Assembly: GCA_030681265.1 (NCBI GenBank)
Contig: JAUXXD010000068.1
Coordinates: 1-42,887 of the forward strand
DNA: 42,887 nucleotides
Origin: Candidatus Didemnitutus sp.
Lineage (GTDB): Bacteria > Verrucomicrobiota > Verrucomicrobiia > Opitutales > Opitutaceae
Direction of reading: 5' to 3'
Below are positions 4,730 through 29,630 of the stretch, piece after piece. Below the pieces are notes generated by a model. That model ran no database searches and was not told the DNA's origin. It saw nothing but the letters and a program-made list of their open reading frames with translations. Positions within the stretch are counted from its first letter, which is position 1. Every line of letters starts with the position of its first letter. Position numbers and translations under genes: made by a program.

Positions 4730-7700
4730 ATGTTTTTCAAATCCAGTTGTGCTCGCGCGCTGCGACTGTGGGTTGCGTTGGGAGGCGGGCTTGTGGTTGC
4801 GACTCCAATTTGGGGTGGAGCGCCGGCGTTGGAGCGAGTGGTGGTGCAGTTGCCCTACAATCACCAGTTTCAGTTTGCAGGATTTTATGCGGCGGAATTG
4901 CAGGGCTATTTTGCGGAGGAGAATCTGGCCGTGGAGCTGCGCGAGGCGACGCGCGCCCGCCAGCCGGTCGAAGAAGTCGTGGTCGGCCGGGCGCAGTATG
5001 GCTTGTCCGGACCAATGGCGCTGCTCGCGCGCATGAACGGGGCGCCGATCGTCGCGTTGGCGGCGATTTTCCAGCATTCGCCCTTTGCGCTCATGGTGCG
5101 GGCCGATTCGGGCATCGCGACGCCGACGGATTTGATCGGCCAGCGCATCGCGTTCAATCCGACATCGAGCAACCTCGAGGTTCGGGCAATGTTTCATCTC
5201 GAAGGGATGAAGGGCGACCAACTGGTCATGGTGCCGGACAAGCCGCAGTATAATGAAATCCTCGCGGGCGAAGCGGAGGCGATGCAGGTATTCGTAACCG
5301 ATGCGCCGTTTGATGCGGCGGCGGACGGATTGGAGTATCGCTTGATCCGGCCAGCCGATTACGGGGCGGATTTTTATGGGGAAACCTTCTTTGCCTCCGA
5401 AAAGGAAGTGAATGCTCATCCGGAGCGTGCACAAGCCATGCGGCGGGCGCTGCTGCGCGGCTGGGAATATGCGCTAGATAACCCGGAGGAGATCATCGAG
5501 TGGATCCTTGAAACGCACGGACGGGCGCATCCGCGGCTGACGCGGGAGCGGTTGCAATTTGAGGCGGCGGCGACGGCGAAGTTGATCAACCCGGATCTGG
5601 TGGAGATCGGGCACATCAATCCCGGCCGCGTGCGCAAGCTGGGCGAGTTGGTGGTGGCGCTCGGCCAGGCCCCAGACATGCGAGCGCTGGACGGGTGGAT
5701 TTATACGGGGGAGGTCCGCGCCCTCCCGAGCTGGACACGCTGGGCGGCGATCGGCGCGGGTGCGGCGATTCTGCTCTCCTTGGCCGCTTTGCTGGCCAAT
5801 TGGCGGCTGAAGCGCCTCGTCGAGCGCCGCACGGTCGAGCTCGTGGAATCGGAAAAAAAGCAGCGCGAGCTGTTCGACCTCGCCCCGACACCGATCGTGG
5901 TGCAGGACCTGCGCAAGATCGCGGAGCGGCTGGCAGCGCTCAAGGCGGCGGGAGTCACCGACCTGCGCGCCCACCTCGCGGCGAATCCCGGCCTCGAGGA
6001 GGAGCTGTTTCGACTGAAGCGCGTTCGGGATGCCAACCGGCACGCCCTCGCTCAAACCGGATTCACCAATGTGGAGGAAATGGACCGCGGCTTGCGCGCC
6101 ATCATGACGCCGCAGGCGATGGAGGGCTTTGGCACCGAATTGCAGACGGTCTGGGAGGGCGGGGACCGGCTGGTCCTCGAAAAAATCTACCGATCAACCA
6201 CGGGCGACGCGATCCACACGCTCCTGCAATGGTCGGCGGATCCGGTGGAGGGCCCTCAGGATTACCGGCAGGTGCGCATGGTCTTTACCGACATCACCAA
6301 GATCAGGCAGGCAGAGCAGGCGTTGCAAGAGAGCGAGGAGCGCTATCGCAACCTGTTCGAAACGACGCCGAATCCGATGTATATCTTCGATGTCGAAACG
6401 CTGCGCATTGTGATGGTGAACGAGGCCGCGATCCACCGCTACGGTTACACCCGCGAGGAATTCCTAGGCATGACGGTGGCGGAATTGCGGCCGGCGGATG
6501 AGGCGGTGCGGCTGCAGCAGGCGATGAAGGAATATAGCAACAGTCCGCCCAAAGCGAGCGGCGCGCACGCCGCGGGCATGTGGCGGCACCGGTGCAAGGA
6601 CGGGACAATTCTCATCGTCGAGGTTTTCACCCACAGCCTGCTCCTGAACGACCGCCCCTGTGTGCTCGCCTTGCCCTTCGACATCACGGCCAAGCTGGCG
6701 GCGGAGCGGGCGCTGCGCGACAGCGAGTCGCGTTACCGGGAACTCTTCGAGAATGCCGTCGGTGGCGTCTATCGCGCGACGCCGGAAGGCCGGTTCATCT
6801 CCGTCAATCCCGCCATGGCGCGCCTCTACGGCTTTGAGGCTCCGGCGGAAATGTTGGCGTGGCGTGAGCGCGAACACGGCGGCGCGGCCTACGCCGACGC
6901 GAAGGAATATCAACGCTTCGCCGACCTGATCAATCGCCACGGCAAAGTGGAGAACTTCGAAACCCGCATCGTTGATCGCGAAGGCAGGACACGATGGGTG
7001 TCGGAGACCTCACGCGTGGTGCGCGATGAGGAGGGCGAGTTGCTCTACTACGAAGGGTTCGTCACCGACATCACCGACCGCCGCCGTCTTGAGGGAGAGA
7101 TGCTGCGAGCCTCGAAGCTGGAGGCGGTGGGGGTCCTGGCCGGCGGCATCGCGCATGACTTCAACAACATCCTCACCGTCGTGTTGGGGAATGTGACGCT
7201 GGCCGAGCTCGACTCAGGCAACGACAGTGCGGTCAGCCGCATGCTGCACGAAGCCAAGCGCGCCACGCTGCGGGCGCGCGATCTCACGCAGCAATTGCTC
7301 ACCTTTGCGAAAGGCGGCGATCCGGTGCGCGCGAGCATCACGTTGCCGGAGTTGGTGCGCGAATCAGCGCAGTTCGCCATGCATGGCTCGAAGAGTCGCT
7401 GTGAATTTGATTTGCCGGCGGACCTCTGGCCCGCCCATGCCGACAAGGGCCAAATCAGCCAGGTGGTGCAAAACCTGGTGATCAATGCCGCGCAAGCGAT
7501 GCCGCAGGGCGGGCTGGTGCAACTCGCCGCCGCCAACGTGCGGCTCGCGACGGGCCGCGGGGCGCAGTTGCCCGCGGGCGATTACGTCAAGTTGACCGTG
7601 CGCGACAATGGCACGGGCATTTCACCGGAGCATCTGGGGAAGATTTTTGATCCGTATTTTACCACCAAGCAGCAGGGCAGCGGTTTGGGGCTCGCGACGG

Positions 7701-19758: not shown

Positions 19759-19834
19759 GTCCCCGTAGCTCAAGTGGATAGAGCGCGCGTTTCCTAAACG
19801 TGTGATCCCAGTTCGACTCTGGGCGGGGGCACCA
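19759..19834 (+). tRNA. tRNA-Arg (anticodon CCT)
   Basis: A complete 76-base tRNA with an encoded CCA end. Acceptor arm GTCCCCG pairs with CGGGGGC (one T-G pair); D-arm GCTC/GAGC; anticodon arm CGCGT/ACGTG with loop TTCCTAA and anticodon CCT at 19793-19795; T-arm CCCAG/CTGGG with loop TTCGACT. It decodes AGG. No integrated element follows it. Confidence 0.96.
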
Positions 19835-23583: not shown

Positions 23584-24672
23584 ATGATTCAACTGGAACC
23601 CCCCTCTTCGGTGATGCTCCCTGCCCAACGCCTGCCGGAATTCCGCACCATGTATCGCGCCCTCGCGCGACGCGACTCGGCTTACGAAGGCGTTTTCTTC
23701 ACCGGCGTAAAGACCACCGGGATTTTTTGCCGTCCGACGTGTCGCGCGAAAAAACCGAAGGCGCAGAACGTCGAATTTTTCCCGACGGTTTCCGAAGCGT
23801 TGCACGGCGGCTATCGTCCGTGCCGACTCTGCCGTCCGATGGATTCGACGAAACCGGTGCCACCACTCGTCGAGCGTTTGCGTCGCACCGTCGAAGCGAC
23901 ACCGGACGGCCGTGTGACCGACAAGGACCTCGTCGCGCTCGGCGTCGAGCCGTCGACCGCGCGCCGTCAGTTTAAGGCGTATCATGGCATGACGTTTCAC
24001 GCCTACCAACGCGCGCGGCGCATGGGTCTCGCGTTGCGCGACGTCAAAGCCGGCAAGCCCGTCATCGAAGTGCAGCTCGATCGCGGCTACGAATCGACGA
24101 GTGGCTTCCGTGAGGCGTTCGCGCGGATTTTCGGCAAACCGCCACGCGGCGCGGCGCGCAGTGCGGCGTTGTTAGCGCGGCGTTTGGAAACACCGTTGGG
24201 CACGATGCTGGCGTTGGCCGACGAGCAGGGATTGCGTTTGCTTGAGTTTGTCGATCGCCGCGGGTTGGAGCGCGAAATTAGCCTGCTGCGGCGCAGCCTC
24301 AAATGCGCCGTGGTGCCGGGGAACAACGCCACGCTCGATGCGACTGCACAGCAACTCACCGCCTATTTTGCTGATCCGACAATTCAGTTTTCGCTGCCGC
24401 TCGCCCCGATTGGTTCGGAGTTTCAGCGCAAGGTATGGGCGGAACTGCAACGCATCCCGGTCGGGCGCACGCGCAGTTATCGCGAAATGGCGCAACACGT
24501 CGGCGTGCCCAAGGCCGCGCGCGCCATCGGCCGCGCCAACGGTTCGAACATGATCGCGATTGTGATTCCGTGTCATCGCGTGATTGCCGCCGATGGTGGA
24601 TTATCCGGCTATGCCGGAGGTGTTTGGCGGAAGCAGCGCCTGCTCGACCATGAGCGGCAGGGCGCGAAATGA
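23584..24672 (+). CDS. ada: Ada: bifunctional transcriptional activator / methylated-DNA-cysteine methyltransferase
   Basis: A 362-residue protein repairing alkylated DNA and inducing the response. Zinc domain: FCRPTCRAKKPKA and YRPCRLCRP supply four cysteines (about 44, 48, 82, 85); the first is the methyl-phosphotriester acceptor. AraC-type helix-turn-helix follows (HAYQRARRMGLALRDV, RGYESTSGFREAFARIFGKPP, about 140-195). The methyltransferase domain ends with the active-site IPCHRVIAADG (Cys near 325) and GYAGGVWRKQRLLDHE. All three domains seem intact. No alkB or alkA gene is adjacent. A hairpin overlaps the stop; the truncated tRNA-Leu follows 70 bases later. Confidence 0.93.
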   Translation: MIQLEPPSSVMLPAQRLPEFRTMYRALARRDSAYEGVFFTGVKTTGIFCRPTCRAKKPKAQNVEFFPTVSEALHGGYRPCRLCRPMDSTKPVPPLVERLRRTVEATPDGRVTDKDLVALGVEPSTARRQFKAYHGMTFHAYQRARRMGLALRDVKAGKPVIEVQLDRGYESTSGFREAFARIFGKPPRGAARSAALLARRLETPLGTMLALADEQGLRLLEFVDRRGLEREISLLRRSLKCAVVPGNNATLDATAQQLTAYFADPTIQFSLPLAPIGSEFQRKVWAELQRIPVGRTRSYREMAQHVGVPKAARAIGRANGSNMIAIVIPCHRVIAADGGLSGYAGGVWRKQRLLDHERQGAK

Positions 24673-24685: not shown

Positions 24686-24699
24686 GGTTAACAAAACTC

Positions 24700-24727
24700 T
24701 TGCCCCACTTGGGGCGGCACGTATCCA
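24700..24727 (+). promoter_or_regulatory. Putative promoter of the broken tRNA-Leu gene
   Basis: TTGCCC at 24700-24705 and TATCCA at 24722-24727 with a 16-base spacer lie 16 bases before the first base of the tRNA sequence. The spacing fits a sigma-70 promoter and suggests that the locus is still transcribed. Confidence 0.4.
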
Positions 24728-24742
24728 TGACCATTCGGTTTT

Positions 24743-24785
24743 GCCCGGGTGGTGGAATTGGTAGACACGCAGGTCTCAGAAGCCT
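24743..24785 (+). pseudogene. tRNA-Leu (anticodon CAG), 5' half only; island boundary
   Basis: The sequence begins as a normal tRNA-Leu: acceptor strand GCCCGGG, TGG, D-arm GTG...CAC with GGTAGA, anticodon arm CAGGT / GCCT with loop CTCAGAA and anticodon CAG at 24777-24779. After GCCT at 24785 it departs: the variable arm is not recognisable and there is no GGTTCGA T-loop. A CCCGGGT at 24820-24826 could still pair with the acceptor strand (one G-T), preceded by a shrunken 4-bp T-arm-like hairpin (24808-24820 region), and no CCA follows. Either the 3' half was displaced by an integrated element or the gene has decayed. No second copy of the 3' half is visible in the window. Confidence 0.7.
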
Positions 24786-24840
24786 AAATCGCAATGTTTC
24801 CCGTTGTGCCAGGTTGTGGCCCGGGTGCGTTTTCAGAGGG

Positions 24841-24890
24841 GAAATCAGAAATGCTGTGGTTCCCGGCGGGTCCAGAAAGGGTCTGATTTC
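24841..24890. repeat. Inverted repeat near the island end
   Basis: Perfect 9-bp arms GAAATCAGA (24841-24849) and TCTGATTTC (24882-24890) with a 32-base spacer. Position close to the tRNA break makes it a candidate recombinase-binding or attachment sequence. Confidence 0.5.
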
Positions 24891-24894
24891 GGAA

Positions 24895-24922
24895 GAAGGT
24901 GTAGAAAAGAAGGTGTAGAAAA
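24895..24922 (+). repeat. Perfect 14-bp tandem duplication
   Basis: GAAGGTGTAGAAAA occurs twice directly adjacent (24895-24908 and 24909-24922), followed by another A. It may be a footprint of recombination or slippage. Confidence 0.7.
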
Positions 24923-24984
24923 ACGCGAAGGGGCCGACCGTGATTCAGCTATTCGGGATAGCGAGGAGCCGGAGCAAACCATCC

Positions 24985-28061: not shown

Positions 28062-29630
28062 ATGAGCGGCCAGGGCCAGCTACCGCTCCCGGCCGCGACG
28101 GGTGGATTGATCCCCGTCGCGGCCTACGTGCGTATGTCCACCGAGCACCAGCAATACTCTACCGAAAACCAACTCGACCGGATCAAGGAATACGCCGCGC
28201 GGCGCGGTATGGAAATTATCCGCATCTTTGCTGATGAAGGGAAAAGTGGCTTGAGCATCAAGGGTCGCGAGAGCCTACGCCAGATGATCGCGGAGGTAGA
28301 AACTGGCAAAGCCGAGTTCAAGGGCATCCTAGCCTACGATATCAGCCGGTGGGGTCGATTCCAGGATGCGGACGAAAGCGGTTATTATGAATACATCTGC
28401 AAACGCGCCGGTATCGCTGTCAGTTACTGTGCAGAGCAATTCGAGAACGACGGCAGTCCCACCTCGAACATCATCAAGAGCGTCAAGCGCTCCATGGCCG
28501 GCGAATACAGCCGGGAGCTTTCCACCAAGGTATTCCAGGGGGCCTGCCGGCTCATCCAGATGGGTTTCAAACAGGGCGGGGCGGCTGGCTTTGGTCTGCG
28601 CCGGATGCTTATCGACCAGTCTGGGCAGCCGAAGGGCATGCTCAAAATTGGCGAGCAAAAGAGTCTGGCTACTGATCGGGTCGTGCTGGTGCCAGGACCT
28701 GATTCAGAGCAGGAGGTTGTTCGGTCTGTCTACCGGGCCTTCCTCGATGAGGGGAAGACGGAGCGAGAGATCGCCGACCAACTCAACGCCCAGAAGGTCA
28801 CGACTGATCTTGGACGCGCATGGACCCGGGGCACCGTCCATCAGGTTCTCACCAACGAGAAATACATCGGCAACAACGTCTATCACCGCACCTCCTGCAA
28901 GCTGAAGCGCAAGCACGTCATGAACCCGCCGGAGATGTGGATTCGCGCTGACAACGCCTTCGAGGCGGTGGTTGATCCGCAGCTCTTCGCCCGGGTGCAG
29001 GAAGCAATCCTGGCCCGGGCCAAGCGCTATTCCAACGAGGAGATGCTCACGGCCCTGAAGGATCTTTGGTCACGCCATGGCCGTATTTCTGGGCTCCTGA
29101 TTGATGAGCAGGAGGCCATGCCATCCAGTGCCGCGTTCAGAAACCGCTTTGGCAGCCTGGTCCGCGCCTACACCTTGATCGGCTACGACCCACAGATCGA
29201 CTATTCGTTCGTTGAGATCAACCGTTACCTGAGAGGACGGCACCCTGAGATTGTGCAGGAGGTCATTGGGCGTCTGGCCGGGATGGGGGTGACCGTGGAG
29301 CGGGATCCTGCAACCGAGTTGCTGGTGCTGGATCGTGAACTGACTGTTTCGGTGGTCCTCTCCCGCTGTCTGCGCACTGCGGCCGGCACATCCCGTTGGA
29401 TGCTGCGCTTTGAGGAGGGATTCCGCCCGGACCTCACCATCGCCGTAAGGATGGATGAGACCAATCAAGGCATTAAAGACTACTATTTGCTTCCTGCAAT
29501 TGACCTGAGCGAGGCAAGACTGCGCTTGGGCGACAACAATCACGCGCTCCTCGACACCTACCGGTTCGACGATCTGGAGTTCTTCTTTCAGATGGCAGAG
29601 CGGATCTCCGTGGAGGATGCCGCGGCATGA
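28062..29630 (+). CDS. Serine recombinase (resolvase/integrase family)
   Basis: A 522-residue recombinase. Catalytic domain about 15-160: AAYVRMSTEHQ with nucleophile Ser26, DEGKSGLSIKGR, ILAYDISRWGRFQD (catalytic Arg), and the E-helix region. Recombinase domain about 185-300 (GAAGFGLRRML, REIADQLNAQ, RAWTRGTVHQVLTNEKYIG). The C-terminal 200 residues lack a visible zinc-ribbon with paired cysteines, which many large serine integrases have, so it is of intermediate kind. Can integrate, excise or invert DNA; it is the best candidate for moving the island. ATGA overlap of four bases couples it to the first ParB-like gene. Confidence 0.9.
   Translation: MSGQGQLPLPAATGGLIPVAAYVRMSTEHQQYSTENQLDRIKEYAARRGMEIIRIFADEGKSGLSIKGRESLRQMIAEVETGKAEFKGILAYDISRWGRFQDADESGYYEYICKRAGIAVSYCAEQFENDGSPTSNIIKSVKRSMAGEYSRELSTKVFQGACRLIQMGFKQGGAAGFGLRRMLIDQSGQPKGMLKIGEQKSLATDRVVLVPGPDSEQEVVRSVYRAFLDEGKTEREIADQLNAQKVTTDLGRAWTRGTVHQVLTNEKYIGNNVYHRTSCKLKRKHVMNPPEMWIRADNAFEAVVDPQLFARVQEAILARAKRYSNEEMLTALKDLWSRHGRISGLLIDEQEAMPSSAAFRNRFGSLVRAYTLIGYDPQIDYSFVEINRYLRGRHPEIVQEVIGRLAGMGVTVERDPATELLVLDRELTVSVVLSRCLRTAAGTSRWMLRFEEGFRPDLTIAVRMDETNQGIKDYYLLPAIDLSEARLRLGDNNHALLDTYRFDDLEFFFQMAERISVEDAAA

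Follow-up and report, generated by a model that had tools for sequence, protein, structure and literature searches.

The 42,887-nucleotide stretch analyzed here (the window) comes from a draft genome of Candidatus Didemnitutus (3.56 Mb in 220 contigs, 2.3% contamination) and carries, downstream of a gene for an Ada-type methyltransferase, the 5' half of a tRNA-Leu(CAG) gene, followed up to the contig end by the genes of a mobile element (Table 1). A large serine recombinase gene is followed by two RepB/ParB-like genes, reaching to 31389, and the segment 28062–31389 is possibly a nested element within an island that has a tyrosine integrase already. The remaining cargo genes encode an AlbA/Schlafen-domain protein, AAA, VWA, PP2C and SLATT proteins and, in truncated form, SspB/DUF4007. 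The segment 31794–42887 has a defence-like appearance, with a PDC-M36A candidate, a TerY-like VWA protein, PP2C, SLATT_5 and an SspB/DUF4007 gene cut by the contig end.

Table 1. Features at the two ends of the island; coordinates are those of the window unless contig C42 of the same genome is named.
Feature	Coordinates	Strand	Basis
Ada-type methyltransferase, chromosomal left neighbor	23584–24672	+	Pfam; adjoins the same tRNA in relatives
Chromosomal DNA that lay upstream of the original tRNA and now points into the island	24690–24742	+	Identity to G009; promoter role presumed
Identity block common to both island ends, 48 bp	24738–24785	+	48/48 versus C42
Displaced 5' half of tRNA-Leu(CAG), positions 1–43, attL core, chromosomal side	24743–24785	+	Identity to C42 tRNA; no ARAGORN tRNA
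Anticodon loop CTCAGAA, probable 7-nt crossover (overlap) region	24775–24781	+	Alignments of displaced halves
Left part of island, to contig end	24786–42887		Right part on C42
P' arm of the element's attP, island DNA	24786–24925	+	Alignment with stretches after the displaced halves of G005 (two), G187, G224, G225 and G226
CCCGGGT, chance complement of the acceptor strand	24820–24826	+	Lacking at the corresponding position in six homologous displaced halves
Paired direct repeats GTGTAGAAAA (24899, 24913), putative arm-type integrase sites	24899–24922	+	Matching pair at C42
Large serine recombinase, cargo or second mobility module, ahead of two RepB/ParB-like genes	28062–29630	+	Pfam PF07508, PF00239, PF07506
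Right part of island, to contig end	C42 4832–8667		Integrase at C42 4918–6066

Sequence comparison revealed that the 43 nucleotides at 24743–24785 are those of positions 1–43 of an intact tRNA-Leu(CAG) on another contig of the same genome, C42. The identity begins 5 nt upstream of the tRNA and stops at position 43, shortly past the anticodon loop, beyond which the two sequences diverge. The first-pass annotation had described the 5' half as normal, and the 43/43 match bears this out. Neither ARAGORN nor Rfam at its gathering score detected a tRNA in the region of 24743–24785, and the sole tRNA found in the window by these methods is tRNA-Arg(CCT) at 19759–19834. At a permissive threshold, Rfam matched 24743–24827 with 25.5 bits (E 0.0017; gathering score 29 bits), in a fold that pairs CCCGGGU (24820–24826) with the acceptor strand and has 31 nt where the variable and T arms would be, arms whose absence had been noted earlier. 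Scoring of this 84-base region by tRNA software, a check proposed for the broken gene, thus left it below threshold and not scored as functional.

The DNA upstream of the fragment is chromosomal, since 24700–24785 is 97% identical to the empty site of a relative, G009. A CTTGC..TATCC block upstream of the tRNA is present also in the relatives G008, G002, G012 and G003. This region had been called promoter-like; its conservation among relatives is in keeping with that description, but a simple σ70 consensus scan detected no promoter at either end of the island, in the window or on C42. The claim that the broken tRNA marks the left end of an island is upheld by the block shared with C42 (48/48) and by the chromosomal upstream sequence, and the break was most likely made by an integrase.

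The genome contains one intact tRNA-Leu(CAG) among four places matching the query, and it lies on C42 with a thymidine phosphorylase gene on its 3' side and a divergent tyrosine-integrase gene on its 5' side. The integrase gene starts 92 bp from the tRNA 5' end, points away from it, and encodes in an intact reading frame a 383-residue tyrosine recombinase (PF00589, E 1.4e-17 in Pfam). Its residues R244, H329, R332, H355 and Y366, which we take to be the catalytic residues of a tyrosine recombinase, are invariant in 15 aligned sequences. A small protein encoded near the integrase (L025, on C42, 7370–7735, minus strand), with no match in Pfam or NCBIfam, is helix-turn-helix-like by eye and is a candidate directionality factor. 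Repeats of the sequence GGTGTAGAA occur at both ends of the island, at 24899–24922 in the window and on the 5' side of the C42 tRNA, where a pair at 4890 and 4903 matches the window pair at 24899 and 24913.

These results revise two statements of the first-pass annotation. The tRNA had been described as not restored; the genome scan proposed as a check, for an intact tRNA-Leu(CAG) and for the missing 3' half, located both on C42, with the 3' half where the other end of the island is expected. Its suggestion that another tRNA-Leu makes the loss tolerable is not needed, since an intact tRNA-Leu(CAG) is present.

An unoccupied site exists in relatives (G008, G002, G009 and G004). In G008 and G002, which belong to the same genus, the Ada gene, tRNA-Leu(CAG) and thymidine phosphorylase lie side by side in the arrangement that the model predicts. 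The same trio is found in G012 and G003 with the tRNA inverted, and G009 and G004 keep Ada and the tRNA together, with no thymidine phosphorylase match within the stretch examined. The comparison with island-free relatives had also been proposed as a check; the tRNA at their site is whole, so no broken unoccupied sequence was encountered. When the window upstream region and 5' half are joined to the C42 3' half, the resulting tRNA is identical to that of G009. The source genome has one close copy each of Ada and thymidine phosphorylase, plus one distant match each (33% and 43%). Because relatives keep the trio together, the joined halves reproduce the G009 tRNA and the close copies of the neighbors are single, the insertion must have split this locus. 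Judged from sequence, the window fragment is the displaced original 5' half, and the tRNA is rebuilt at the integrase end. As a separate observation, the inverted tRNA-Leu(CAG) retains the conserved upstream block (L018 of G012, 1459–1543; L019 of G003, 1527–1611) when set against G008 and G002.

Recombination by a tyrosine integrase between the chromosome and an attP-borne tRNA-Leu(CAG) 5' half almost certainly explains both junctions. The attP of the element would carry a copy of the tRNA-Leu(CAG) 5' half, and the integrase would recombine it with the chromosomal tRNA gene through a crossover in the anticodon loop. At the integrase end, on C42, the 5' half of the element would be joined to the chromosomal 3' half, producing an intact tRNA with element DNA upstream; at the window end, the chromosomal 5' half, along with the DNA originally upstream of it, would be left as a displaced fragment, followed by the P' arm of the element. 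This 5'-half mode is the mirror image of the usual 3'-half mode. That attP carried the tRNA 5' half, and that the tRNA was rebuilt at the far end, is indicated by the 48-bp block, the flanks on C42 and the gene order of relatives. The account is founded on the two junctions, the empty site of relatives, repeats that match between the two ends and the recurrence of this design in many relatives; the agency of the C42 integrase, the exact crossover and transcription of the tRNA from an element promoter are what we infer. The two ends of the window island lie on different contigs of the 220-contig assembly, so its continuity rests on the relatives. Each of two patterns for the excised attP gave 0 matches in viral contigs.

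The permissive Rfam match could be taken to mean that a complete tRNA-Leu once occupied the 84-base region and has decayed there, retaining the acceptor-pairing CCCGGGT, a possibility raised in the first-pass annotation. The pairing itself is real in the Rfam fold, but the score lies under the gathering score, the variable and T arms are missing, and the perfect 5' half gives way to a P' arm homologous to those following six other displaced halves. At the equivalent place, CCCGGGT occurs in none of these six aligned Leu(CAG) halves (G224 has a CCCGGG elsewhere), and the heptamer is there by chance. The true 3' half, moreover, is on C42, adjoining its chromosomal neighbor. We consider decay in place exceedingly improbable, and the junctions rule it out.

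Just as slight is the probability that the tRNA was destroyed by the island and never restored, with the cell using another or an element-encoded tRNA-Leu, as in the tRNA-dependent lysogeny of actinophages. Such a mode exists (PMC10865867), and tRNA-Leu(TAG) and tRNA-Leu(GAG) are also present in this genome. The shared block, however, is 48 bp rather than ~10 bp, it rebuilds the tRNA exactly with chromosomal DNA on the 3' side, and the C42 tRNA adjoins thymidine phosphorylase, its neighbor in relatives as well; the intact C42 tRNA and the rebuilt sequence rule out an unrestored gene. Very unlikely too, if by a hair less so, is an artefact of assembly or strain mixing in which C42, with the intact gene, and C211, with the broken one, come from different strains in one bin. 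The draft state of the genome, its contamination and the presence in another genome (G005) of two displaced halves ~90% alike would fit such an origin. Against it, the one intact tRNA-Leu(CAG) found has a 5' flank of element DNA with matching repeats, and the pattern recurs within single contigs, including the one contig of G082 and the largest contig of G017.

Elsewhere, the two ends of such elements share a contig or chromosome in G082 (57.7 kb apart), G017 (32.6 kb) and G033 (7.9 kb); they also lie together in the virus record G226 (14.8 kb apart) and at 7 further loci. Wherever both lie on one contig (G082, G017, G033, the 7 loci and G226), fragment and intact tRNA have the same orientation. 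These 7 came from a search of 96 tRNA-adjacent loci, in which the island side was covered over ~11 kb at most. Within the pieces searched, no second copy was detected in 8 of 11 genomes (G175, G196, G194, G217, G187, G173, G150 and G030); in G187, G150 and G030 the displaced half is on another contig. In another set of genomes and records, 3 of 8 yielded no displaced half (G173, G223 and, except for a 21-nt remnant, G016). With a single tRNA-Met as query, clear displaced halves came up in 4 of 16 genomes (G082, G030, G229 and G150), and ten of the weaker matches with loci proved to be intact tRNAs; weaker matches were checked where loci were given, and diverged or unassembled fragments would be missed by this search. 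The Met(CAT) label of ARAGORN may include tRNA-Ile2.

Several of these sites have features of their own. In G016, an integrase with an in-frame stop adjoins the intact tRNA-Leu(CAG), and no displaced half was found across 140 kb on the island side. At C1 4567882–4567931 (in L040) of this genome lies the 21-nt tRNA-Leu(CAG) remnant (GTAGACAC...CTCAGAA), which ends at the anticodon loop and runs into a P'-like arm bearing paired GTGTAGAAA repeats; its location 1.61 Mb from the intact tRNA, on the other strand, fits a later-rearranged chromosome or another element. The two displaced tRNA-Leu 5' halves of G005, on C329 (L211) and C190 (L218), both have chromosomal-type upstream sequence, and they are 89.6% alike across 463 bases; possible origins are two strains, duplication or repeated insertion. 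Near 124081–124123 on contig C7 of G225 (L227), a tRNA-Leu(TAG)-like 5' half not called by ARAGORN has close behind it a reading frame that by eye resembles the start of an integrase; the site may be truly broken or decayed.

To locate the crossover, we aligned 19 displaced 5' halves, drawn from 18 elements (two come from G005), with the rebuilt tRNA of each. All of them reach the last base of the anticodon loop: 8 stop at precisely that base, and 18 no more than 4 bases past it; the exception, L113, ends 11 past. The exact match begins between tRNA positions −4 and 3 (position 0 counted) in 17 of the 19, and in G005a and L158 it is shortened by internal mismatches. A further pair, from G033, is identical over 37 bp and likewise ends with the last loop base. 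Two elements that face the tRNA 3' end (G032 and G066) have displaced 3' fragments that start exactly at the first loop base. In the tightest-ended pairs, the 5' and 3' modes therefore overlap solely in the 7-nt anticodon loop, the likely overlap region as these alignments place it.

Other elements resemble the window island: by eye, two direct repeats lie upstream of each rebuilt tRNA, and their counterparts are found ~110–150 nt past the displaced half. The repeat sequence varies among elements and, again by eye, is consistent between the two ends of each. In an automatic 7-mer count, an element's own partner exceeded the mean of the others in 15 of 17 elements, the exceptions being G187, where the count detected no tandem 7-mer, and L131 (own partner 0 versus 0.62 for others). 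These paired repeats are putative arm-type sites of the integrase. Many P' arms, that of the window (24786–24900) among them, also contain by eye a near-palindrome like TTTTCAGAGGGGAAAT ~45–65 nt past the junction and, in many arms closer to the junction, TTTNCCC-like repeats.

The distribution of the 5' mode was surveyed with the C42 integrase as query. The family search covered 200 genomes, with matches in 52 of them, and loci were given for 30 matches; further relatives were the best 80 of 280 confirmed stretches from GTDB species genomes, and 10 from IMG/VR. In these 120 loci (30 + 80 + 10), the integrase start adjoins the tRNA 5' end in 89 and the 3' end in 7; there is no nearby tRNA in 20, and 4 are cut by a contig edge. 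After removal of 6 short or broken integrases and 17 duplicates (at least 90% identity), 97 non-redundant relatives were left: 72 5'-facing, 6 3'-facing, 16 with no tRNA near and 3 cut. Among the 78 that are tRNA-adjacent, 72 thus face the 5' end, and these 72 represent 16 anticodons; the GTDB, IMG/VR and phylum-sample searches used a profile (A3) built from 5'-mode integrases only, which calls for caution over selection. In the phylum sample, 28 of 387 genomes had a match, and the 27 loci, some counted before, divide into 15 5', 9 3' and 3 without a tRNA, so that the more distant relatives include many 3'-mode members. A 3'-mode integrase used as query retrieved largely the same places as the family search. 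The records bearing taxonomy are mostly Verrucomicrobiota (including Opitutaceae, Chthoniobacterales or Spartobacteria, and subdivision 3), and a few carry the names of other phyla. The 5'-mode integrases of L130, L155, L134, L159, L157 and L105 are in records labelled Acidobacteria, KSB1, Hydrogenedentes, Anaerolineae and Proteobacteria, for which interphylum transfer or binning error is possible.

The tree of the 97 relatives requires 3 changes of the 5' and 3' labels. A larger tree, of 116 integrases (83 5', 13 3' and 20 unlabelled), which includes the phylum sample, was computed with a simpler model, omitting L180 and L067 (long branches), L295 (short) and loci present before; it requires 5 changes, compared with a mean of 12.5 for shuffled labels, and none of 500 shuffles was as low as 5. 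From so few label changes relative to the shuffles, the mode follows the integrase lineage. It seems to have switched a few times, a count that is rough because the tree program warned that long branches, some of them 3'-mode, meet.

Because the DNA upstream of −5 is element DNA, transcription of the rebuilt tRNA must start in the element or reach it by read-through, and a takeover of the promoter by the element is presumed. In a search for σ70-like sequences upstream of the 72 rebuilt tRNAs, the best scores averaged 5.58, versus 5.25 for resampled sequences, with 33 of 300 resamplings as high; for 17 displaced halves the values were 3.35 and 3.31, with 138 of 300 as high. Neither excess is convincing. 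At 15 of the 72 loci the hexamer GTAAGT lies within 75 nt upstream of the tRNA, in 11 of these at −26 to −23; an example is C42 (L025) near 4858, and a promoter or factor site is possible. A wider reading of the clade, which we put forward tentatively and, taken as a whole, hold to be rather doubtful, is that these integrases are specialists that replace the upstream half of a host tRNA gene together with its promoter. The integrated element would control host tRNA transcription from the short interval shared with the divergent integrase gene, the displaced host promoter would drive transcription into the far end of the element, and the 5' and 3' modes would be two orientations of one anticodon-loop reaction, with the orientation switched several times within the clade.

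Elements in relatives differ in content. The IMG/VR record G226 (L268; 14,958 bp) is bounded by an intact tRNA-Leu(CAG) and its displaced 5' half, has matches to head protease, neck, tape-measure and tail-fibre proteins, and apparently represents a whole small prophage, to judge by these matches. Two short elements carry a G2P-like replication protein, the match in L141 lying just below the Pfam cut-off.

Published precedents make the mechanism a known one. Of the 3919 islands in Islander, 159 have 5' fragments and 3760 have 3' fragments (PMC4383910). The 5'-fragment islands share with the element described here an intact tRNA at one end, a displaced 5' fragment at the other and a tyrosine integrase (PMC4383910). 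The 5' mode is a small minority in Islander, whereas in the sampled relatives of the C42 integrase it is the rule. For pTN3 of Thermococcus nautili and the pTN3-like archaeal integrases, the 5' half of a tRNA gene serves as attB, as here; for pTN3 this is a tRNA-Leu, with a shared stretch of 41 bp and a rebuilt tRNA separated from its original promoter (PMC5495485, PMC8371274). Integration of pTN3, with its attP inside the integrase gene, splits that gene; the C42 integrase, in contrast, has an intact frame and lies outside the tRNA, with paired repeats on both sides. Phage-related sequences of Sinorhizobium meliloti have att at the tRNA 5' end in 9 of 88 cases (PMC11476347); they too are bacterial and preserve the tRNA, and they belong to another phylum. 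The actinophage elements also use a tyrosine integrase to enter a tRNA gene and have putative arm-type sites (PMC10865867); their core is ~10 bp and the tRNA is not rebuilt, the phage bringing a whole tRNA, whereas here a 48-bp block rebuilds it. A review, citing Williams 2002, states that the 5'-half situation is seldom met in bacteria (PMC8371274). Given the Islander, S. meliloti and pTN3-like cases, the 5'-half mode is known but rare; what is new is its prevalence in the relatives of this integrase. Among the listings covered from open-licence PMC papers, there was no report of this integrase clade.

Elements that split tRNA genes nearly always carry the 3' half of their target, and the host tRNA gene therefore keeps its promoter; a common view is that a promoter swap would be harmful. 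Bacterial integrases that act mostly in the 5' mode, at tRNA genes of 16 anticodons, make this idea testable. The 3'-mode members, two of which share the anticodon-loop crossover, point to an orientation that can switch. In these genomes, a lone 5' tRNA half may mark the end of an island and not a lost tRNA.
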